NCBI GenBank assembly: GCA_015490535.1
Contig: WFXP01000122.1
Span: forward strand, 1-34,455
Source: Gammaproteobacteria bacterium
GTDB taxonomy: Bacteria > Pseudomonadota > Gammaproteobacteria > Thiohalospirales > Thiohalospiraceae
DNA length: 34,455 nucleotides
Direction of reading: 5' to 3'
Shown here: positions 1,303-32,929 of the stretch, piece after piece
Layout: every line of letters begins with the position of its first letter
Numbering within the stretch: position 1 is the first letter of the stretch
Position numbers and translations under genes: made by a program
Notes under the pieces: generated by a model
Told to the model about the DNA's origin: nothing
Database searches by the model: none
The model's input: the letters and a program-made list of their open reading frames with translations, nothing else

Positions 1303-1479
1303 GCCGAAAATCCCTGTTTTTGTCCAAAAAATCACTGTACCACGATCGCCACGCGGAATCCCGAATCGGTCGTGAAGCCTGCCCGGGTGGAGCAGCAGGG
1401 GAGTGCCGGGTTCCGCTAATGCTTGCCACGGCAATCCGGTTCAGCCAGAATCGGGGTATTTGCGGTCTGCAATAATATA

Positions 1480-4400
1480 ATGAAAGCCGGAACTACTCTG
1501 CTGATGCTGCTGTTTCTGGCTCTGCCGTCGCTGCCTGCCGCGGCGGCGGGACCCGGTGCGCCGGAGCCCGTCACCATTTCGATACCGGACAACATGACCA
1601 CCGTCAGTGCCATCGATGCCGATGGCAACCCTACCGGTATGGTAGTGGAGTTCTGGCGCCTCTGGGGGGAGAAGACCGGCCGCCAGGTGCGGTTCCGGCT
1701 CGCCAGCATGCCCCGTTCCATTGCCGATGTGCGGGAGGGCAGGGCGGACATTCACGGGATCCTGTTCTACTCCAGGGAGCGTGCCAGGGAGCTGGACTTC
1801 AGCACTCCTTTCTTCACCGTTCCGGCAACCCTGTTCTATCGTACCGACGGGCCGGGAGAGTCCACCCTGGAGTCTTTCCGGCAGGCGCGTATCGCCACCT
1901 ATCCACCTCTGGGGGAGCTGCTGCGCGGCCGGCTGCCGGACGCCACCATAACCACCCTGGACACCGCGAAACAGATGGGGGTGGCTCTGGCCCGCGGCGA
2001 GATTGACGCCTTTCTGGCCGATGAGCCATCCGCGGAGCTTGCGCTGGTGGAGGCTGGAATCCGGGGCAGGGCGGCCAGGATCTCTCCGCCCATGCTGAAC
2101 GCCGGGATCCATGCCGGCGTGGCGCGCGGCAACAGGGAGCTGCTGGCGCTGGTGGAGACCGGCATCGCGGCGATTTCGGAGCGGGAGCGCAGGGAGCTGG
2201 TGAACCGCTGGCTTCCGGACTATGTATCCCCCGTGGGTGAGGAGAGCGGACCGGATCGGGGGCCGGCGCTTACTCCGCAGCAGAGGGAGTGGCTGGGCCA
2301 ACACCCCGTGATGAAGCTGGGGGCGATCTCCTCCTGGGCACCTGTTGAGTTCGTCGGTCCCGATGGGGGCTACCGGGGGATCAGCTCCGACTATGTGGAG
2401 CTGCTCGCCTCCCGCTTGGGGATCTCCATGCAGCCGCAGCCCGCCATGACCCGCCGCCAGCTGATTACCGCTCTGGCGGAGGGAAGGATTGACATTCTGT
2501 CCAGCGCCGTAAAGACGCCGGAGCTGGAGAAAAGGTTCAACTTCACCATCCCCTATCTCAGCTTTCCAGCGGTGGTATTCGTGCGAGGGGCGCAGCAGCT
2601 GATTACCGCGCCGGAAGATCTGGCTGGCAAACAGATCGCCATCGAGAGGGACGATCCGGTGGAGGAGTATTTGCAGCTCACCTATCCGAAGCTGGAGCTG
2701 GTGCGGGTGGAGACCCCGGCCCAGGCGATGAAGAGCCTCGCCACCGGCAAGGTGGATGCCTATATCGGTAATCTGGCGGTGGGGGCCTACGAGATCGACA
2801 AGCGGGGCCTGACCAACATCAAGATCGCCTCCCCCACCCTGTTCACCTACAATCTCGCGTTCGCGGTGCGCAAGGAGTGGCCGGAGCTGGTGGAGATCCT
2901 CGATGAGGCCATCGGCTCGCTCACCCAGGAGCAGCGTCAGGCGATCAGGAACCGCTGGTTCGCGGTGCGTTTCGAGCATGCGGTGGATCGTAGCAGGGTG
3001 TGGCGGGCCGCCCTGCTGGCCGGGGGAATAACCGGGTTCCTGCTGCTCATGGCGATACTCTGGAACCGCTCCCTGAAGAAGCAGATCCGGGAGCGCGAGA
3101 GAGCGGAGCGGGAGCTGCGCATCAGCGAGGAGCGCTACCAGCTGGCCACCGAGGCGGCGTCGGAGGGGCTGTGGGACTGGGACATCACCACCAACCAGGT
3201 CTACTACAGTCCGGCCTACATGAAGATGCTGGGTTACGCGCCGGGCGAGCTGCAGGCCACGGAGCACACCTGGCGCGAGCTGCTGCATCCCGACGATCGC
3301 CAGGAGGCCATACGGCTGGTGCAGCAGGCGTTGCGCGAGGGCAAGGACACCTACCAGCACGAGTTCCGGTTGCGCACCAGGAGTGGCGCATACCGCTACA
3401 TGCTGTCACGCGGCAAGGTGGCGGAAAGGGATACCGAGGGTAGGCCGATCCGCGTGGTCGGCTCCCAGGAGGATGTCACCGAACGCAGGCGGATGCAGCT
3501 GGAGTTGCAGGAGGCCAAGCGGCAGGCGGAAGCGGCCAACGAGGCCAAGAGCGGTTTTCTGGCCAACATGAGCCACGAGATTCGCACGCCGATGAACGCC
3601 ATCATCGGCATGTGCCACCTGGTGCTGCAGTCGGATCTCACCGCGCGCCAGCGCGACTTCCTGAACAAGATCAACAGCTCCGCCCACGCACTGCTGGGGA
3701 TTATCAACGACCTGCTGGATTTCTCCAAGATCGAGGCGGGCAAGCTCACCATCGAGCGCACCCAGTTCCGTCTGGACGACATACTGCAGAACATATCGGA
3801 TCTGGTGAGCATAAAGGCGGGGGAGAAGGGCATCGAGGTGCTGTTCTCGGTGGAGCGTGACGTGCCGCGCACCCTGATCGGGGATCCGCTGCGCGTCGGG
3901 CAGGTGCTGCTCAACCTGACCCAGAACGCCATCAAGTTCACCGAGCAGGGAGAGGTGGTGATCGGAATCCGGTTGCTGGAGGAGGATGCCAGGGCCTGCC
4001 GGCTGGAGTTCACGGTCAGGGATACCGGGATCGGCATCAGGCCGGACAAGATCCCCGGCCTGTTCGACGCCTTCTCCCAGGCGGACAGCAGCACCACGCG
4101 CAGATATGGTGGCACCGGCCTGGGGCTCGCCATCTGCAGGATGCTGGTGGAGCTCATGAAGGGGGAGATCGGGGCGCAGAGCGCGCCGGGCCGGGGCAGC
4201 ACCTTCCGCTTTAGCGTGCCGTTCGGCAAACCGGTGGAGGTGGCCCCGCGCAGTCGTTACCCGGAGGTCAGCTTCGACACCATGCGCGCCCTGGTGGTGG
4301 ACGACAACGCCACCGTGCGCCAGGTGTTCCGGGACATGCTGGAGTCGTTCGGCTTCGACGTGAACACCGCGGAGTCCGGCATCGCCGCCCTGCAGGAGCT

Positions 4401-5721
4401 GGAGGCCAACGGCGGCGCGGAGCCCTACGACCTGGTGCTGCTGGACTGGAAGATGCCGGAGATGGACGGCCTGGAGACCGCCCGTCTGATCAGGAAGAAC
4501 CCACGCCTGGAGAAGATCCCCACCATCGTGATGATCACCGCCTACGGCAGGGAGGAGATCATGCACCGCGCCCGGCAGGAGCATCTGGATGCGTTTCTCA
4601 TCAAGCCGGTCAGCCCCTCGGTGCTGTTCGAGACCGTTGCCCAGACCATCGGGGGAGAGCAGATCGGGAGGCGGGATGGCCGTACCGCACCGGGACCGGC
4701 GCCCGTGCAGAGGCTCTCCGGCAGGGTGCTCCTGGTGGAGGACAACGAGATCAACCAGCAGGTGGCGGTGGCCATGCTGGAGAACTTCGGGCTGCAAGTG
4801 GAGATCGCCGGTAATGGCAGGGAGGCGGTGGAGGCGGTGCAGCGGCAGAAGTACGATCTGGTGCTGATGGACATCCAGCTGCCGGAGATGGATGGCTTCG
4901 AGGCCACCCGGCGCATCCGCGCCGCCCGCTACAGCGATCTGCCCATTGTGGCCATGACCGCCCACGCCATGACCGGCGACCGCGAGAAATCGTTGCGGGC
5001 GGGGATGAACGACCATCTGCCCAAGCCCATCGAACCGGACCAGCTGTTCGCCATGCTGGGCCGCTGGCTGAAACCCGCAAGCGAAGAGACCCCCGCCACA
5101 AACGGCAATGGGGTCCGGTTCCCGGAGCTGCCGGGGCTCGACCTGGAGAGGGCCCAGCTGCGCACCGGCAACAACCGCAAACTGCTGCGCAAGCTGCTGC
5201 TCCAGTTCCATGCCGACCATCGGCAGGCGGTTCCGGTCATGCGCAGACTGCTGGCGCGGGGTGACCTGCGGGCGCTCAAGCGCTACGCCCATACCCTGTG
5301 TGGAATAACCGGGAATCTGGCCGCCGACCGGCTCCAGGGGGCGGCGCGCGCCATCGAGCAGGCGGTTACCGACGGAGAGGAGGAGGCGCAGCTGGAGGAG
5401 CTGATCGCCCAGCTGGGGGAGCTCCTCACCCCGCTGCTGGAGCAACTGGAGGAGCTGCGCATACCGCAAGGCAATGGTGGCCTGCCGCCAGGTGAGCGGT
5501 TCTCCAGTGAGGAGCTTAGACAGCAGCTGCGCGAACTGGAGGGTTTGCTCGCGGCGGGGGACTCCGCCAGTATCCCCGCCACCGAGGCCATAGTCCGCCG
5601 CTTGCGGGAGCTGGGAATGGCGGAATTTGCCGAGCGGCTCTCCACCCAGGTGACCGATTTCGAGTTCGACGACGCCGTGGAGACCGTGCAAGAGATTCTG
5701 GGGGAGGTCAATGTACCCTGA
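1480..5721 (+). CDS. BvgS-like hybrid sensor histidine kinase with two periplasmic solute-binding domains
   Basis: A 1413-residue transmembrane sensor. The ATG at 1480 opens a signal peptide ([17 protein letters not shown]); the frame is open upstream only from a TTG with no support, although no strong ribosome site precedes 1480 either. Domains in order: SBP_bac_3 about 25-245, second SBP_bac_3 about 269-494, transmembrane helix about 507-529, PAS about 547-667, HisKA with SHEIRTPMN and phospho-acceptor His699, HATPase about 800-917 (NAIKF, DTGIGI and GTGLGLAI boxes), REC1 with Asp989, REC2 with Asp1131, HPt about 1237-1327 with His1271, and a C-terminal tail. This gives a His-Asp-Asp-His phosphorelay, as in BvgS and EvgS. 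The HPt motif reads HTLCG where HxLKG is usual. An HD-GYP regulator follows 204 bp downstream and is a plausible output. The ligand is unknown. Confidence 0.92.
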
Positions 5722-9171: not shown

Positions 9172-12100
9172 CTACCTGCGCCTGCTGCGCCGCAGGCGTG
9201 AGAGCAGGCGGCGGGCCATCTCCCCGAACATCTCGGTCTGGGTGGGATGGGGATGGATGGCGTGGGCCACCTGCTCCAGGGTCATTTTCCCGGACACCAT
9301 CATCACCGCCTCGCCAATCAGCGTATCGGCGTGATCGGCCAGGAAGTGCACTCCGACGATACGCTGGCTGGCCTTGTCCGCCACCATCTTGATCATGCCC
9401 CGGGTCTCGTTGGTGATCATCGCCTTGGCATCGATGCTAATGGGCATCTTCACCTCCACGGCGTCGATCCCCTTGTCCCTGGCCTGCGCCACGGAGAGCC
9501 CCACGAAGGCCGCCTCGGGACGGGTGAAGATCACGCCGCAGTCCAGATCCTGATGGTATCTCATCTCCTCTCCCAGCAGGGTGGCAGCCGCGACGCGCCC
9601 CTGCTGGGCGGCGGTATGGGCGAGCATCAGGCCGCCGATCACATCTCCCACGGCAAAGATGTGCGGCACGCTGGTGCGGCAACGGGCGTCCGCCTTGATC
9701 ACCCCGTTCTCCACCTTCACCCCGGCCGCCTCCAGGCGGAGCGGCTCCAGCAAGGGCCGCTTTCCGGTGGCCATCAATACCCTGGCGCACTTCCGCTGGC
9801 GGCGTTTCCCGTCGGCATCCTCGTAGCTCACCGTCATGTTCCCCGGTTCGCCGTCGATATTCAGCACCTTGACGCCGGCGTGGATGGTCAGGTTGGGATC
9901 GTCGTTCAGCGCCGCGGTGAGCTCCCGGGCGATCTCCGGCTCCACCTCCGCGAGGATGCGCTCCTGCCCCTCCAGCAGGGTGACGCTGGTGCCGAAATCC
10001 TGGAAGATCTGGGCCATCTCCACGCCGATGGCGCCGCCACCGATCACCACCATCCGATCCGGTACTCCGTCGAGACTCCAGACCGTGTCCGAGGTCAGCA
10101 CGCCGCCGCTTGCCAGCCCCTCTTGCGCACCGGGGATGGGCGGCACGAAGGGGGGGGCGCCGGTGGCGATGACGGCGGCCCCGAAGGTGATGGTCTCCCC
10201 CTCCGAGCCGTTGCCCGGCCGGGCGCGCTCGTGGGGATTGGCGCTGTTTCCGGAGCTGTCCACGAACACCGCATGCTCGCTCTCGAAACGGGCAAAGCCC
10301 TGGATGACCTTGATCTTCACGCCGGTGTCGGTTTTGAGCGCCATCTCGCCACGGCTCTCCAGTATTGCGCGGCGGGTCTGCTCCAGCCTGTCCCAGTCCA
10401 GGGTGGCGCCGGTGGTCCCCTCGACACCCAGATGCCGGTCGTGGGCGCGGTCCCGGATACGGTCCGCCGCCGCACGCCACGCCTTCGAAGGGATACAGCC
10501 GCGCCACAGGCATTCGCCGCCGGGGAACGGGGCATCGTTGATCATCGCCACCCTGATACCATGGGAGGCCAGATCGCGGGCGCAATCCTCGCCGCCCGGT
10601 CCACCACCGATCACTACTACGTCGTAGTCCCACTCCCCTTCCGGGATGGCGGGCCCCGTTGGCCCCATCCACTCCTCGGGCTGCTCGATATTCTGCTTGA
10701 GGGTGTTCAGAAACTGCGCCACCTCGGCCCCGTTCACCACCCGGTGGTCGGCGGTGATGGTGAGCGGCATGCCCTCCGGTCCGGCGGTGGCGATGGCCAG
10801 GATGGCGGCGGTTCCCGGCGTGGGAATGGCGTCGAAATAGCTGACCCCCAGCATCCCCATGTTGGAGACCATGAAGGTGGGGTTGGCATACTCCTCCGGC
10901 GCGAGACGGCGCTTGCGGGCTCGCGCCACCAGATCGCCCCACGCCTCGTTGAGCTGTTCCAGGGTGCGGGATTCGCAGTTGCGCAACACCGGTACCACCA
11001 GCCCGCCACCCTCTGCGGAGACCGCCATGCCGATGTCCACGTTGCTGCGCTCCACCAGCCTGTCCACCGGCTGGTAGCACCAGTTGATGCTCGGGTGCCT
11101 TGCGATGGCCGTGGCGCACGCCTTGGCTATGGCCACGGTGACCGAGATCCCCTTCTTCCTGGCCGCCCGGAGCAGGGCTTCCGGCCGGGCATGTACCGTG
11201 ACATGGAAGGTGGGCATGGTCAGGGAGGCGCTCATGGAGGCGGAGACCGCCTTCTCCATGGCGTTCATGGGGCGTCCCTCGCCCGGCACCTGGATCTCCG
11301 GCAGGGGTCGGCCCGCCGGGGCCGTGGCTGCCGCCCCGGAACGGCTCTGCTGGACGTCGGAGCCGGTTATCGCGCCTTGCGGGCCGCTCCCCTTCAGCCC
11401 CTCCAGATCCACTCCCAGCTCCCCGGCCAGCTTGCGGGCGTATGGGGTCGCCCTGCCGCCGGCGGGCCTTGGCGCCGGAGCAGCGGCGCCCCTGGTGGCG
11501 GGGGCGGCGGGACGGTCGGTGGCCGGAGATCCGGTTTCCGGAGCGGAGGGCTTTCCGGCGGGCGCCGCCGGGGCGGCCGCCCCCTCTTCATGCACCACCT
11601 GTTCCGGCTTCTCCACCAGGTAGGCCATCGGCTCGCCCACGGCCACCACCGAATCCAGCGGCGCACGCGGCCCGGAGAGATACCCTTCCCGGAACACCTC
11701 CACATCCATGATGGCCTTGTCGGTCTCCACCGTGGCGACCACGTCACCGCGCTCCACCTTGTCGCCCAGACCTTTCTCCCAGCTCACCACCACTCCCTCG
11801 GTCATAGTGTCGGAGAGCTGGGGCATCCTGATTACGTGCAGGGTGCCCTCCGGTTGTCCGGCCGGGGTTGCCGCGTCGCCCTGCTCCGCTTCCGCCCCCT
11901 GGTCGGACGTGGCCGGCGGCTCTCCCGGCTCCGCCAAAACCGGTTCGGCCGGCGCCTCTTCCCCGGCATCTTTCACCTCCTCCGGAGAGGCCGCCAGCCA
12001 GGCGATGGGTTCGCCCACGGGAACGGTACCGTCCACCGGCGCCAGCGGGCCGGAGAGATATCCCTCCCGGAACACCTCCACATCCATGATGGCCTTGTCG

Positions 12101-12228
12101 GTCTCCACCGTAGCGATGATGTCACCGCGCTCCACCCGGTCACCGATCTGCTTCTCCCAGCTGACTATGACCCCCTCGGTCATGGTGTCGGAGAGCTGGG
12201 GCATCTTTATCGGGTACGGTTCAGCCAT
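9172..12228 (-). CDS. Fused dihydrolipoamide acyltransferase (E2) and dihydrolipoyl dehydrogenase (E3)
   Basis: A 1018-residue protein joining two pyruvate-dehydrogenase subunits. The ATG at 12228-12226 opens directly into the first lipoyl domain. Order: lipoyl 1 (lipoylated Lys45 in VETDKAIMD), acidic Pro-Ala linker, lipoyl 2 (Lys171 in the same motif), Pro-Ala linker, E1/E3-binding domain about 258-292 (ATPYARKLAGELGVDL), acyltransferase core about 310-515, then E3 from about 533: FAD GGGPGG at 541-546, redox disulfide Cys573/Cys578 in GGECLWRGCIPSK, NAD site VIGGGAIGVEMA, and the C-terminal HPHPTQTE His-Glu pair. The acyltransferase site reads DHRVVNG (His495, Asn499), where Asp is usual. 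It should pass acetyl from E1 to CoA and reoxidise lipoate with NAD in one chain. It is third in an operon after E1 alpha and E1 beta. Confidence 0.93.
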   Translation of the reverse strand: MAEPYPIKMPQLSDTMTEGVIVSWEKQIGDRVERGDIIATVETDKAIMDVEVFREGYLSGPLAPVDGTVPVGEPIAWLAASPEEVKDAGEEAPAEPVLAEPGEPPATSDQGAEAEQGDAATPAGQPEGTLHVIRMPQLSDTMTEGVVVSWEKGLGDKVERGDVVATVETDKAIMDVEVFREGYLSGPRAPLDSVVAVGEPMAYLVEKPEQVVHEEGAAAPAAPAGKPSAPETGSPATDRPAAPATRGAAAPAPRPAGGRATPYARKLAGELGVDLEGLKGSGPQGAITGSDVQQSRSGAAATAPAGRPLPEIQVPGEGRPMNAMEKAVSASMSASLTMPTFHVTVHARPEALLRAARKKGISVTVAIAKACATAIARHPSINWCYQPVDRLVERSNVDIGMAVSAEGGGLVVPVLRNCESRTLEQLNEAWGDLVARARKRRLAPEEYANPTFMVSNMGMLGVSYFDAIPTPGTAAILAIATAGPEGMPLTITADHRVVNGAEVAQFLNTLKQNIEQPEEWMGPTGPAIPEGEWDYDVVVIGGGPGGEDCARDLASHGIRVAMINDAPFPGGECLWRGCIPSKAWRAAADRIRDRAHDRHLGVEGTTGATLDWDRLEQTRRAILESRGEMALKTDTGVKIKVIQGFARFESEHAVFVDSSGNSANPHERARPGNGSEGETITFGAAVIATGAPPFVPPIPGAQEGLASGGVLTSDTVWSLDGVPDRMVVIGGGAIGVEMAQIFQDFGTSVTLLEGQERILAEVEPEIARELTAALNDDPNLTIHAGVKVLNIDGEPGNMTVSYEDADGKRRQRKCARVLMATGKRPLLEPLRLEAAGVKVENGVIKADARCRTSVPHIFAVGDVIGGLMLAHTAAQQGRVAAATLLGEEMRYHQDLDCGVIFTRPEAAFVGLSVAQARDKGIDAVEVKMPISIDAKAMITNETRGMIKMVADKASQRIVGVHFLADHADTLIGEAVMMVSGKMTLEQVAHAIHPHPTQTEMFGEMARRLLSRLRRSRRR

Positions 12229-12266: not shown

Positions 12267-13247
12267 CTATCTGGAGAACTGGGCCAGCACTGCCTCCACC
12301 ACATCGCGGGCGGTGGGCAAAGCGGCCTTTTCCAGGCTGCGGTTGTAGGGGATGGGCACATTGACCGCGGATACCCGCAGCGGGGCGGCGTCCAGCTCGA
12401 AGAAACACTCCTCGTTGAGGATCGCCATCACCTCGGAGCCTACGCCGACGGCCGGCTCCGCCTCCTCCACTATGACGGCGCGGTGGGTCCTGGCGACGGA
12501 AGCGGCTATTCCCGCCCGGTCCAGGGGGTTCAGCGCGAAGAGATCCACCACCTCGGCCTCGATGCCATGCTCCCTGGAGAGCACCCCCGCCGCCTGCAGC
12601 GCCCAGTGCACCGAGATGTTGTAGCCAAACAGGGTCACGTCGCGCCCCTCGCGCACCACCTCGGAACCCTCCAGCGGGTGGAAGTACTCCCCATCGGGCA
12701 CCTCCCCCTTCAGGTTGTACATCAGCTCGTGTTCATTGATGAACACCGGATCCGCGCAGCGCACCGCCGACTTGAGCAGTCCGTAGGCCTGTTTCGGCGT
12801 GGAGGGGGTAACCACCCGCAGGCCGGCGACTCCCATGAACACCTTCTCCATGCGCGCCGAATGCTGGGCCCCCAGCTGGTGGGCGGTTCCGCCGGGGGAG
12901 CGCACCACGATGGGCGCCTCCAGCTGGCCGCCGGACATGTAGCGCACCTTGGCGGCGGTGTTGAAGATCTGGTCCATCGCCAGCCAGGCGAAGTTCACCG
13001 ACATGATCTCGATGATGGGCCGCACACCGAGGAACGAGGCCCCGATCCCGAGCCCGGTAAAGCCATTTTCCGAGATGGGGGTGTCGATCACGCGGTCCGG
13101 GCCATACTTTTCGTACAACCCCTTGGTGGCCTTGTAGGTGCCACCGGCCACCCCGATATCCTCGCCCATGCAGATCACCAGCGGGTCGTGGGCCATCTCC
13201 TCGTCGTGGGCGCGGCGCACCGCCTCCCAGTACATCAATTCCGCCAT
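12267..13247 (-). CDS. pdhB: Pyruvate/2-oxoacid dehydrogenase E1 beta subunit
   Basis: A 326-residue protein. The ATG 13247-13245 overlaps the TGA stop of the E1 alpha gene as TGATG, which both fixes the start and suggests translational coupling. It shows the transketolase-like pyrimidine-binding domain with GEDIGVAGGTYKATKGL, the conserved DTPISENGF segment (Glu60), VRSPGGTAHQLGAQHS, and a transketolase C-terminal domain from about 200. With E1 alpha it forms the thiamine-diphosphate heterotetramer that decarboxylates pyruvate and acetylates lipoate on E2. The E2-E3 fusion starts 38 bp downstream, so the set is an operon. Pyruvate is the likeliest substrate because the set sits beside fumC and has no branched-chain genes, but acetoin or another 2-oxoacid is not excluded. 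Confidence 0.92.
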   Translation of the reverse strand: MAELMYWEAVRRAHDEEMAHDPLVICMGEDIGVAGGTYKATKGLYEKYGPDRVIDTPISENGFTGLGIGASFLGVRPIIEIMSVNFAWLAMDQIFNTAAKVRYMSGGQLEAPIVVRSPGGTAHQLGAQHSARMEKVFMGVAGLRVVTPSTPKQAYGLLKSAVRCADPVFINEHELMYNLKGEVPDGEYFHPLEGSEVVREGRDVTLFGYNISVHWALQAAGVLSREHGIEAEVVDLFALNPLDRAGIAASVARTHRAVIVEEAEPAVGVGSEVMAILNEECFFELDAAPLRVSAVNVPIPYNRSLEKAALPTARDVVEAVLAQFSR

Positions 13248-14239
13248 CACCGCGCCCCCCCGTGAACCCAAGGATCGTTATCCGCCAGCACGTATCTCTC
13301 CAGCTCCTCCACCTTCGGCTCCGGCGACCGTTCGGCGAACGGGATGACCTCCTGTTCAATCTCCTCCAGGATCCCGGTATCCATCTCCCGGTACTCCTCC
13401 GCGCTCAGCTGGCCCGCCTCGATGAGCCGATCGCGCAGCATGATGATGGGATCGCGCTTGCTCCACTGGCGCTCCTCCTCCTTGGCCCGGTAGGCATTGG
13501 AGTCGGACATGGAGTGCCCGCGGTAGCGATAGGTCAGCAGCTCCAGGAAGTAGGGGCCCTTGCCGGAGCGCACATGCGCCACGGCCTCCCTGGCGGCGGC
13601 ATACACCTTCTCGATATCCTGGCCATCCACCTGGGCGGCCGGGATGTCATAGCCGCATACCCGCTTGTACTGTTCCACCACCGCGGTGGAGCGATCGATG
13701 CGGGTCCCGATGCCGTACAGATTGTTCTCGCACACGTAGAGCACGGGGAGCTGCCACAGGCTGGCCATGTTGAGCGCCTCGTGAAAGGTGCCCTGGTTGT
13801 TGGCCGCGTCCCCCAGGAAACAGATGGCGATCTCCTCCTCCCCCTTCAGCTTCAGGGCCTTGGCGATGCCGGCGGCAAGCGGAAACGGCCCCCCCACCAG
13901 CGCATAGCCGCCCATGAAGCGGTGCTTCACGTCGAATATGTGCATGGAGCCGCCGCGCCCCTTGCTGGAACCGGTCTCCTTGCCGAACAGCTCGGCCATC
14001 ACCTCCCTGGGATCCGCGCCGCACTTGATGGCATGCACATGGTCCCGGTAGCCGGTGATGACATAGTCCCGCCCCGGCCGGGCCGCCTCCAGAACGCCGA
14101 TGGCGCATGCCTCCTGGCCCGGATAGAGGTGGAGAAATCCACCTATCTTGCGCTCCACGTAGGCCTCGTAACAGCGCTCCTCGAAGCGGCGCGCATAGAG
14201 CATCTCGCGCAGCAGCCGTTTTTTGTCAGCGGCGTCCAT
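13247..14239 (-). CDS. pdhA: Pyruvate/2-oxoacid dehydrogenase E1 alpha subunit
   Basis: A 330-residue protein of the usual length for bacterial heterotetrameric E1 alpha. It begins MDAADKKRLLREMLYARRFEE, contains HLYPGQEACAIG, GYRDHVHAI and KGRGGSMH, and carries the thiamine-diphosphate site from GDAANNQG (143-150) to ENNLYG (Asn172-Asn173). The first motif is GDA rather than GDG, a variant I believe occurs in other E1 enzymes. YRYRGHSMSDSNAYR is the phosphorylation-loop region. It is the first gene of the minus-strand operon E1 alpha, E1 beta, E2-E3, and is divergent from fumC. A CCCCC-GAGCAA-GGGGG inverted repeat lies about 20 bases before its start on the leader, without a T-run. Confidence 0.93.
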   Translation of the reverse strand: MDAADKKRLLREMLYARRFEERCYEAYVERKIGGFLHLYPGQEACAIGVLEAARPGRDYVITGYRDHVHAIKCGADPREVMAELFGKETGSSKGRGGSMHIFDVKHRFMGGYALVGGPFPLAAGIAKALKLKGEEEIAICFLGDAANNQGTFHEALNMASLWQLPVLYVCENNLYGIGTRIDRSTAVVEQYKRVCGYDIPAAQVDGQDIEKVYAAAREAVAHVRSGKGPYFLELLTYRYRGHSMSDSNAYRAKEEERQWSKRDPIIMLRDRLIEAGQLSAEEYREMDTGILEEIEQEVIPFAERSPEPKVEELERYVLADNDPWVHGGAR

Positions 14240-14389: not shown

Positions 14390-15787
<1,398 letters not shown>

Positions 15788-16249: not shown

Positions 16250-17653
16250 ATGTTCAACAATCACTACAAGGTGTTTTTCCCGGCGCTTGTCGCGCTGGTT
16301 GCCACCGGCATGGCGTCCGCCGAGGAGGGCGTTGATGCGGCCACCGCCATCCCCAATGCCAAACCGGGTGAGTGCTATGCCAAGGTGGTGATTCCGGCAC
16401 AGTACAAGACGGAGGCCGAGGAGGTACTTGTCAAGGAGCCTTCGGAGCGCATCGAGATCATCCCCGCCAAGTATGAGTGGGTGAAGGAGAAGGTGCTGGT
16501 GAAGGAGGCCTCGCAAAAGCTGGTCTCAGTTCCTGCCACCTACGAAACCGTAACCGAAAAGGTTGAGGTTCGTCCTGAGAGCCTGGTCTGGCTTACCAGC
16601 CTGCGCAACAATGCCCCGCAGGCCAGCCCGGCGCTGTTGGAGGCGGCCAAGAATGGCGGGGTGGATCTGGATGCGGCCACGCCCGGCATGTGTTTTCATG
16701 AGCACCGCATTCCGGCGAAATATGAAACCAGGACCGAACAGGTTCTGGTGAGTGAGGCCTCGGAGAGGGTGGAGGTCATCCCCGCCAAATATGAATGGGT
16801 GGAAGAGAAGGTGCTGGTGAAAGAGGCCTCGCAAAAGGAGGTGGCTGTACCGCCGGTCTATGAAACCATAACCGAAAAGGTGTTGGTTGAGCCAGCCAGA
16901 ACGGTGTGGAAGAAGGGGCGCGGGCTGATTGAAAAGATCGACAACACCACCGGAGAGATCATGTGTCTGGTGGAGATTCCGGCCAAATACAAGACCATCA
17001 CCAAGCGCGTACTCAAAACGCCGGCTTCCACCAAGGTTATTGAAATTCCGGCCCAGTACAAGACGGTAAAGGTGCGCAAGCTGGTATCCGCCCCTCAGGA
17101 GAAGCGCATCGAGATCCCGGCCAAATACAAGACCATTACGAAGCGGGTCCAGGTGTCTGAGGACGAATTTGTATGGCATGAAATACACAACAAGGAGCTG
17201 GATGCCAGCAGTCGAACCGGCAACCAGATCTGCCTGCAGAAGAGACCCGCCGTATACAAGACCGTAACCCGCCGTGTGGTGAAGACCCCGGCTGCCACCA
17301 AGACGGTGGAGATCCCTGCCCAGTACAAGGTTGTAAAGGTACGCAAGCTGGTATCCGCTCCCCAGGAGAAGCGCATCGAGATCCCGGCCAAGTACACCAC
17401 TATAACCAAACGAATCAAGATCTCCGATCAAAGGGTGGAGTGGCGCTCGGTATTGTGTCAGACTAATATGAAGCCGGAGATCATCACCCGGCTACAGCGT
17501 GCCCTCAAGGCTGCCGGATTTGATCCCGGACCTATCGATGGAGTGGTAGGCGCGGCCACCTTGCGGGCGGTCGGTAACTATCAGCGCGAAAAGGGGCTGC
17601 CAACCGGTGGACTTACCATGGATACGCTGAAGTCACTGGGGATAACAATATAG
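16250..17653 (+). CDS. Secreted protein of twelve 23-residue repeats with peptidoglycan-binding domain
   Basis: A 467-residue protein. AAGGAGGG precedes ATG 16250 at about seven bases, and residues 1-24 are a signal peptide (VALVATGMASA). The body is four modules, each running from a Cys to a Trp (42-114, 148-220, 239-309, 328-398). Each module holds three repeats of the type P-A-K-Y-x-T-x-T-K-R-V-L-V-K, with the prolines exactly 23 residues apart (49/72/95, 155/178/201, 244/267/290, 333/356/379). Residues about 406-464 are a PG_binding_1 domain (LQRALKAAGFDPGPIDGVVGAAT). I infer an extended beta-structured periplasmic or surface protein held to the cell wall. The repeat region is unrecognised. 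A lipoprotein paralogue lies at 31466-32608. Transcription probably ends at the 17871-17905 terminator. Confidence 0.85.
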   Translation: MFNNHYKVFFPALVALVATGMASAEEGVDAATAIPNAKPGECYAKVVIPAQYKTEAEEVLVKEPSERIEIIPAKYEWVKEKVLVKEASQKLVSVPATYETVTEKVEVRPESLVWLTSLRNNAPQASPALLEAAKNGGVDLDAATPGMCFHEHRIPAKYETRTEQVLVSEASERVEVIPAKYEWVEEKVLVKEASQKEVAVPPVYETITEKVLVEPARTVWKKGRGLIEKIDNTTGEIMCLVEIPAKYKTITKRVLKTPASTKVIEIPAQYKTVKVRKLVSAPQEKRIEIPAKYKTITKRVQVSEDEFVWHEIHNKELDASSRTGNQICLQKRPAVYKTVTRRVVKTPAATKTVEIPAQYKVVKVRKLVSAPQEKRIEIPAKYTTITKRIKISDQRVEWRSVLCQTNMKPEIITRLQRALKAAGFDPGPIDGVVGAATLRAVGNYQREKGLPTGGLTMDTLKSLGITI

Positions 17654-31465: not shown

Positions 31466-32608
31466 TTAAATCGGTGAAACCCCCAACGCCTTCACTGTCT
31501 CGATGTTCAGGTACTTGTCCACCGGCAGATTGTTCTTGCGCTGGAAAGCGTTAACCGCGGCCATGGTTTGCGAACCGATTACGCCGTCGATGGGTCCGGG
31601 ATCGAACCCCTTGGCCTTCAGGGCGCGCTGGATTTCGGCGACCTTGCCGCGTGTCATGTTGGTTTTGCACAGGATGCTGCGCCACTCCATGTGCCCGTCT
31701 GAAACCTTCTCCTTACGGGTTACAGTGGTATAGACGGCCGGGATTTCAATGGTCTTGGTCTGGGCCGGAGTTACCAGCTCCTTGACTGTAACGGTCTTGT
31801 ATTTTGCCGGCACCTTGACCTTCACGGTGTGCTCCGGCTTGTCAACCACACGCTTCCGGACCGTTTTGTAGACCGCAGGAATCGGCACCTTCTTGGTGGT
31901 AGCCGGGCTCTTCAAGACTCTGCGGGTAACGGTTTTGTAAGTCGCCGGGATCTCTACCAGGCACATAATCTCCCCCGTGGCCTCATCGATACGCTGGATG
32001 GGACCGGTGCCCTTTTTCCAGGTGGTGTAGGCCGGCTTGACCAGGACCTTCTCGGTAATCGTCTCATACTTTGCAGGTACGGTGACGATCTTTTCGCCCG
32101 CAGGCCTGACCAGCACGCGCTCCTCAACCCACTTGTAGGTGGCAGGAACCACCTTCAGCTTCTCATGAGCCTCCTTGACCAGCACGCGCTTGGTAACCGT
32201 CCGGTACTTGGCGGGAATCACCTCGATGCGGCTGCTTGCCTCCTTTTTTACCACCTTCTCGGTTATGGTTTTGTATTTGGGCGGCACCCACACACGCGCA
32301 TAGCACTCGCCCGGCTTGGCATTGGGGGGGAGCATATGCCCGTCGTCGGTTGCCACCGCTGCGGGAGCCGGGGCGGCACTCTTCTGCTTGGCCAGCTCCT
32401 CGGCCCTGGCCTGCAGGGCGCGCTCCTTCTCCGCCAGCATGGCCTCCTTGCTCTTCAGAGCCTCCAGGCGAGCGTCACATTCAGGGCACTCCGGGGCCTC
32501 GCCAGCGGAGGCGGTCTTTTCCGGCGAATGGGTGTGGGAACATGCCCCAAGCAGCAGCGCCATGGACGCCGCCACGGCCGCTTTTTCCCAAGTCTTCAAT
32601 GTTTTCAT
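31466..32608 (-). CDS. Lipoprotein of eight 23-residue repeats with peptidoglycan-binding domain
   Basis: A 380-residue paralogue of the 16250-17653 protein. ATG 32608-32606 follows GAGGAAG; the longer frame upstream runs through a foldback element and is not used. The lipobox is LGAC with lipidated Cys23. Residues about 40-76 contain CPEC and a coiled coil (LKSKEAMLAEKERALQARAE), then an Ala-Pro linker. Two modules run from Cys102 to Trp197 and Cys216 to Trp309, each with four repeats whose prolines are exactly 23 residues apart (109/132/155/178 and 221/244/267/290). PG_binding_1 is about 318-376 (IQRALKAKGFDPGPIDGVIG). I infer an outer-membrane-anchored protein gripping peptidoglycan, like a tether. 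It has its own terminator at 31419-31441. Confidence 0.87.
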   Translation of the reverse strand: MKTLKTWEKAAVAASMALLLGACSHTHSPEKTASAGEAPECPECDARLEALKSKEAMLAEKERALQARAEELAKQKSAAPAPAAVATDDGHMLPPNAKPGECYARVWVPPKYKTITEKVVKKEASSRIEVIPAKYRTVTKRVLVKEAHEKLKVVPATYKWVEERVLVRPAGEKIVTVPAKYETITEKVLVKPAYTTWKKGTGPIQRIDEATGEIMCLVEIPATYKTVTRRVLKSPATTKKVPIPAVYKTVRKRVVDKPEHTVKVKVPAKYKTVTVKELVTPAQTKTIEIPAVYTTVTRKEKVSDGHMEWRSILCKTNMTRGKVAEIQRALKAKGFDPGPIDGVIGSQTMAAVNAFQRKNNLPVDKYLNIETVKALGVSPI

Positions 32609-32658
32609 TTTCACTTCCTCTGCTTCGTTTTTATCCAACAAAAAACACTCCCTGCTCC

Positions 32659-32929
32659 CTAGTACTCCGTCAAGATTATAACTCAGGATGCAGAACTTCC
32701 CGAACCGGCCAAGGCAAGGTGCACTCCGCAGGGAATGGCATGCCCTTTCCAAGGAGAGCAACGCAGCATTGGCCGGTTCGGGAAGCTCCCTTCGGGCCAG
32801 GCAGGAGGCGGTCATCTGCGGTGTTGCGCTCTCTTGAATTAGCCATGGCTAGTCCTGCGGTCGCGCGCCTAGCAGATGACCGCTTCCTGACCGGTCGCAT
32901 CCTAAGTTATAACCTTGACGGAGTACTAG
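32659..32929. mobile_element. Foldback (MITE-like) element, family B
   Basis: A 271-bp element bounded by CTAG at both sides. The 33-bp inverted ends (32659-32691 and 32897-32929, starting CTAGTACTCCGTCAAG) pair at 31 of 33 positions. Inside are two hairpins: a perfect 17-bp pair (32696-32712 with 32769-32785, CTTCCCGAACCGGCCAA type) and a 17-of-18 pair (32802-32819 with 32872-32889, CAGGAGGCGGTCATCTGC type). The outer ends resemble those of family A, but the interior does not. A C-TA/TA-G border would fit a TA-duplicating (IS630/Tc1-like) transposase; that is inference. There is no transposase inside. Confidence 0.85.
32675..32680 (-). promoter_or_regulatory. Possible -10 box inside the element end
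   Basis: On the minus strand the left end of the family B element contains a consensus TATAAT pointing at the repeat lipoprotein gene, 67 bases before its ATG. No good -35 hexamer is seen at 16-18 bases, so this is only a candidate, but there is little room for a promoter between the element (32659) and the start codon (32608). Confidence 0.3.

Follow-up and report, generated by a model that had tools for sequence, protein, structure and literature searches.

The window (the whole stretch of 34,455 nucleotides analysed here) carries a single frame in which E2 and E3, as a rule two distinct proteins of the pyruvate dehydrogenase (PDH) complex, are joined. In 2-oxoacid dehydrogenase complexes E3 is, by textbook account, a loosely bound, exchangeable and shared component. 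A fusion kept throughout a lineage would instead fix E3 at 1:1, free the peripheral subunit-binding domain (PSBD) for E1 and impose both trimer and dimer symmetry on a single chain.

Domain organization and operon

The gene lies on the minus strand, with its ATG at 12228 and its stop codon at 9174–9172, and the encoded chain has a calculated mass of 107.6 kDa. Pfam places two Biotin_lipoyl domains, E3_binding, 2-oxoacid_dh, Pyr_redox_2 and Pyr_redox_dim in this order in the one frame, each above its cut-off and with E-values from 1e-12 to 1e-66. A chance match is excluded by these values together with the conservation of the domains across dozens of genomes. The lipoyl domains, PSBD and 2-oxoacid_dh core follow each other as expected for a PDH E2. 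An earlier note on this DNA, made from the sequence alone, had described a 1018-residue frame with two lipoyl domains, a PSBD, an E2 core and a complete E3, which is what Pfam finds; the span it gave, 9172–12228, is also correct, although the minus strand was left unstated. Open reading frames on the plus strand within this span were considered and are taken as by-products of the 65–70% GC composition. Residue positions refer to the 1018-amino-acid numbering throughout. The features are as follows.

13247–14239, minus strand: E1 alpha subunit of pyruvate dehydrogenase, 330 amino acids, first gene of the operon (PF00676, 292 bits; TIGR03182, 421.5 bits, cut-off 393.85)
12267–13247, minus strand: E1 beta subunit (Transket_pyr and Transketolase_C; NF006667, 367.6 bits, above cut-off)
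9172–12228, minus strand: fused E2–E3 (dihydrolipoyl acetyltransferase–dihydrolipoyl dehydrogenase), 1018 amino acids (Pfam architecture and full-length homologues)
11998–12213, minus strand: lipoyl domain 1 (LD1), residues ∼6–77, with the ETDKA lipoylation motif (PF00364 in two stretches, and motif count)
11611–11832, minus strand: lipoyl domain 2 (LD2), residues ∼133–206 (PF00364 and motif count)
11350–11454, minus strand: PSBD, residues ∼259–293 (PF02817, 48 bits; matches to the PSBDs of PDB entries 1w4i, 2eq8 and 1ebd chain C)
10681–11271, minus strand: E2 acetyltransferase core, residues ∼320–516, with the DHRVVNG motif (PF00198, 158 bits; E2 cores in the PDB)
10630–10680, minus strand: E2–E3 joint, residues 517–533, PEEWMGPTGPAIPEGEW (conservation, constant length and AlphaFold2 pLDDT; see below)
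9214–10629, minus strand: E3 (dihydrolipoyl dehydrogenase) domain, residues 534–1005 (PF07992, 224 bits; PF02852, 99 bits; Foldseek)

The fusion is the last gene of an E1alpha–E1beta–E2E3 operon in which all three genes run in the same direction. The ATG of E1 beta at 13247 overlaps the stop codon of E1 alpha (with a TTG start the open reading frame reaches 13271), and 38 bases separate the end of E1 beta from the ATG of the fusion. The encoded E1 is of the alpha2beta2 type and, from the TIGR03182 score above cut-off, pyruvate-type. The same gene order is present in all named loci with sufficient upstream sequence (about 32).

Distribution of the fusion

About 41 of the 185 sampled genomes of the class carry the fusion, its own genome counted. 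In 38 class genomes one match spans both E2 and E3, mostly at 64–74% identity and at 57% in the lowest case. Within the order of the window the fusion is intact in three genomes (G003, G004 and G011), while two others have partial copies at contig ends, one running across the joint (G002) and one with the E3 part only (G006). We further scanned 84,980 species with patterns derived from the E2 of the fusion family, which diverged fusions elsewhere could escape. This gave 40 named gammaproteobacterial contigs carrying the fusion at 54–86% identity, from Thiohalomonas, Thiogranum, Sulfuriflexus, Thiohalobacter, Chromatiales and unclassified MAGs, and E2 and E3 are fused in every case where the contig is long enough. 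No fusion was found beyond the Gammaproteobacteria in limited sampling. Among the matches listed, a 120-genome sample of the phylum has separate genes only, and so does the plasmid collection. The word 'unusual', used by the earlier note, holds across bacteria but not within a large part of the Gammaproteobacteria, where the fusion is common.

Adjacent separate E2 and E3 genes are common, and many other genomes have a stop codon between them, which is the setting in which an assembly or sequencing artefact could lose the stop codon and merge two neighbours. The same joint, in sequence and in length, nevertheless recurs in the ∼41 class genomes and the 40 named contigs, which are independent assemblies, and there are single-contig genomes among the carriers. 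These independently assembled homologues exclude the sequencing error that the note had named as its possible undoing, and we give the artefact practically no weight.

Spread by plasmids was also considered and set aside; the best plasmid matches stay below 60% identity and the annotated ones are separate genes. At seven loci (L048, L051, L053, L054, L056, L058 and L063) the fusion has one lipoyl domain instead of two.

The joint between E2 and E3

The 17-residue joint (Pro517–Trp533) has a constant length in 55 of 60 homologues, and Pro517, Trp520, Gly525, Pro529, Gly531 and Trp533 are invariant. Over about 60 homologues, the mean frequency of the majority residue is 0.795 in the joint, 0.804 in the E2 core and 0.806 in E3. 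In the same comparison the two linkers that flank LD2 reach 0.44 and range in length from about 29 to 61 residues; the linkers elsewhere in the fusion proteins are variable and of the Ala/Pro kind. A fixed E2–E3 geometry can be argued from this, since the joint shows the conservation of a folded domain and the flexible linkers do not. The segment from the E2 core through the joint to E3 was modelled as a single chain with AlphaFold2 using 35 sequences (mean pLDDT 85.5, pTM 0.80). The model contains a short helix at residues 518–521, and the pLDDT is 84–95 in the blocks that include the joint. On the natural reading of the model and the conservation, the joint would be a constrained connection rather than a flexible tether.

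The peripheral subunit-binding domain

The retained E3-binding domain had seemed puzzling at first sight. It is indeed present, but is explicable as a dock for E1 by analogy with Geobacillus stearothermophilus, which has an alpha2beta2 E1 and where the PSBD binds either E1p or E3 (PMC2663715). In the fusion E3 is attached covalently and E1 is of the same type, so that the PSBD would be available to E1.

Positions 265, 269 and 286 are taken to correspond to Arg135, Arg139 and Arg156 in the G. stearothermophilus numbering. Arg occupies the first in 56 of 57 homologues. At position 269 all 58 homologues have Gly, Ala, Thr or Ser and never a basic residue, and at position 286 all 58 have Val, Glu, Ala or Ile. 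The two closest unfused E2s retain the arginine at 269 and lack it at 286, and Val is likewise found at 286 in the solved PSBD 1w4i. A non-basic residue at 286 is therefore not tied to the fusion, being found in its nearest unfused relatives as well. If either loss reflects relaxation following the fusion, that of the arginine at 269 is the likelier one, although the pattern is suggestive only.

These data also bear on an alternative in which the fused gene yields two working enzymes, with an internal start near Met521 or proteolysis in the joint liberating an E3 that then binds the PSBD. Retention of the PSBD is in line with this, as is the ATG codon that 46 of 60 homologues have at residue 521, yet 13 homologues have no start codon at this place and a Shine–Dalgarno-like 4-mer precedes only 11 of 47 start-like codons. 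A conserved joint that is predicted to be ordered and a 269 position without a basic residue do not fit it either. The internal start was rejected, its Shine–Dalgarno context giving no support, and we consider the two-enzyme alternative as a whole improbable.

Active sites

The E2 core keeps its catalytic histidine in the motif DHRVVNG, where Asn replaces the usual Asp. DHRxxNG is present in 60 of 61 homologues, and its His and Gly are invariant. SucB of the fusion genomes has SYDHRxxDG. The loss of Asp is not peculiar to the fusion, since the nearest unfused E2s have Tyr or Phe at this position (DHRVVYG and DHRVVFG). The change to Asn could lower the acetyltransferase activity and counts against the explanation that we favour below.

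The features that define an E3 are present: the FAD/NAD and dimerisation domains, the redox CX4C motif (GGECLWRGCIPSK) and the C-terminal HPHPTQTE. Both redox cysteines are found in all readable homologues, and His992 and Glu999 in 58/58 of those readable there. Comparison of the E3 domain with solved E3 structures using Foldseek gives target TM-scores of 0.86–0.91. The curated lipoamide dehydrogenase model TIGR01350 is the best-scoring NCBIfam model, but its 379.2 bits fall below the cut-off of 408.8, a second point against the favoured explanation.

Other E3 genes and glycine cleavage

The own genome of the fusion (G000, 92% complete) contains one 2-oxoacid_dh protein and one Pyr_redox_dim protein, the latter being the fusion itself. 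The separate lpd gene that the earlier note proposed looking for was not found in this 92% complete genome, in which GcvH and GcvP are both encoded. Of 35 fusion genomes, 18 lack a second 2-oxoacid_dh and 17 have additional E2 genes, in most of them a classical SucB; where coordinates were compared, an E3-type frame is found near the additional E2 gene. In the complete genome G142 the other Pyr_redox_dim proteins are glutathione-reductase-like (from motifs only) and a transhydrogenase (NF003585, 651.9 bits), and in the complete G135 they are glutathione-reductase-like and mercuric-reductase-like as assigned by motifs only; none of these looks like Lpd. Those of G054 and G194 are glutathione-reductase-like and transhydrogenase-like, also by motifs only. 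GcvH is present in 35/35 fusion genomes and GcvP in 9/9 tested, including G000, G142, G135 and G054. Because glycine cleavage is encoded where no stand-alone lpd is found, the fused E3 is probably the sole E3, and the L-protein of glycine cleavage, in several near-complete fusion genomes. Further E3-like proteins exist in other fusion genomes, for example G003 and L151.

Three genomes of the same genus (L151, L009 and L015) encode a stand-alone E3-like protein (GGTCLFEGCIPSK) that is about 40% identical to the fused E3 and that the own genome lacks. The L151 protein has the motif HPHPTLSE, and those of L151 and L009 score just below the lipoamide dehydrogenase cut-off. Four fusion genomes (L135, L146, L147 and L183) encode Lpd-like proteins with CLNxGCxPKK replacing CIPSK, along with four or five GcvH-like genes; these Lpd-like proteins may be connected with the lipoate-binding-protein (sHdr) pathway of sulfur oxidation. 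The own genome has a divergent second GcvH-like gene (G000 C160:2717-3058), which perhaps encodes a lipoate-binding protein of sulfur oxidation.

Proposed mechanism and assembly

The explanation that we favour, and consider probable, is that the chain is a combined PDH E2 and E3 that works with the alpha2beta2-type E1 and assembles with E2 trimers alternating with E3 dimers, the fused E3 being shared with glycine cleavage where it is the only one. The chemistry would be that of other PDH complexes. By homology, E1 would dock onto the PSBD, decarboxylate pyruvate and acetylate a lipoyl domain. The lipoyl arm would bring the acetyl group to the E2 core, yielding acetyl-CoA, and then move to the E3 domain on the same core for reoxidation with NAD+. 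In genomes without another lpd, the fused E3 would also serve the glycine cleavage system.

The 1:1 stoichiometry of E2 and E3 follows directly from the single chain, as had been anticipated, provided that the chain is uncleaved. E2 cores have to be trimeric and E3 dimeric, so the fused chains most likely build a closed assembly of alternating E2 trimers and E3 dimers at this ratio, its geometry being set by the conserved joint. A hexamer of two trimers and three dimers (∼650 kDa), similar to OdhA, and a 24-mer with 12 E3 dimers on its two-fold axes seem about equally likely.

Alternatively, the E2 core could be an ordinary 24-mer or 60-mer from which E3 hangs loosely while the PSBD recruits additional, separate E3, and the fusion would be a neutral accident of no architectural significance. 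The short helix 518–521 could still act as a trimer–trimer knob in such a core, and 17 of the 35 fusion genomes do have a further E2 gene, mostly SucB, with E3-type genes elsewhere. On the other hand, the joint is conserved on a par with the folded domains, and in several fusion genomes there is no stand-alone Lpd that could be recruited. We regard this arrangement as unlikely, somewhat less so than release of a separate E3.

The alternating particle can also be taken further. In a widespread class of PDH, E3 dimers would then be a structural element instead of a peripheral enzyme, tied to the E2 trimers by a rigid joint in a PDH architecture that is as yet unsolved, with a PSBD wholly given over to E1 and an E3 that is the only one for glycine cleavage in several species. 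All of this holding at once is a tentative proposition, which we would sooner doubt than accept.

Relation to known systems

A fusion of this kind is probably already known. Powles and Rawlings, writing in Microbiology in 1997, reportedly found an unusual E2–E3 subunit fusion in the PDH complex of the chemolithoautotroph Thiobacillus (Acidithiobacillus) ferrooxidans. Going by that description, it resembles the present case in that a single frame of the PDH operon encodes both the E2 core and E3. The pyruvate dehydrogenase of A. ferrooxidans is encoded by three genes, AFE3068-70 (PMC2621215), which is consistent with E1alpha, E1beta and E2E3. No paper describing an E2–E3 fusion was found in the open-licence literature, nor, as far as we searched these papers, any description of its breadth, the conserved joint, the PSBD pattern or the missing lpd. 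The note had allowed that a wide distribution already described would undo its claim; the distribution is indeed wide, and the prior description amounts to the one case reportedly found in 1997.

The probable 1997 description limits the surprise, while an unusual machine design becomes testable through the conserved joint and through the several genomes that lack a spare E3 gene. The fusion is a natural system in which to ask whether mobility and exchange of E3 matter for catalysis, and how glycine cleavage runs when the only E3 sits in PDH.

The fused E3 also matches the lipoyl-E3 of Neisseria, P64k (PDB entries 1bhy, 1ojt and 5u25), a PDH E3 whose chain also includes a lipoyl-type domain. 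Unlike the fused E2–E3, P64k has no acetyltransferase core or PSBD. The unfused E2s of alpha2beta2-type PDH in Gammaproteobacteria (L176 and L177) are 41–43% identical to the fusion. They lie after E1beta, and also after E1alpha where the contig includes it, but stop after the core, and in L177 no E3 lies directly downstream. They have DHRVVYG or DHRVVFG and an arginine at the Arg139 position of the PSBD, whereas the fusion has DHRVVNG and a non-basic residue.

Actinobacterial OdhA/KGD (E2o–E1o) shares with the fusion an obligate-trimer E2 domain joined in one chain to another enzyme of its complex that is an obligate dimer (PMC10415282). In OdhA the result is a homohexamer of two trimers and three dimers with the trimer–trimer helix diverted (PMC10415282). 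The partner there is E1o and the lipoyl groups are supplied in trans (PMC10415282), whereas here it is E3 and the chain contains lipoyl domains and PSBD.

Neighbouring genes

Divergent from the PDH operon is a gene of the fumarase/aspartase family at 14390–15787 (plus strand). Its product is best fitted by class II fumarase (550.9 bits), yet falls below the cut-off of that model, and it passes the cut-off of the model for the aspartate ammonia-lyase subfamily. Two related proteins that consist of PAKYKTVTKRVL/PAKYETVTEKVLV-type repeats and end in a PG_binding_1 domain are encoded 14 kb apart on opposite strands, at 16250–17653 (plus) and 31466–32815 (minus). At 1423–5721 (plus strand) lies a gene for a large hybrid sensor kinase. 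The protein contains two SBP_bac_3 domains, PAS, HisKA, HATPase, two receivers and an Hpt domain, and after it comes an HD-domain response regulator.
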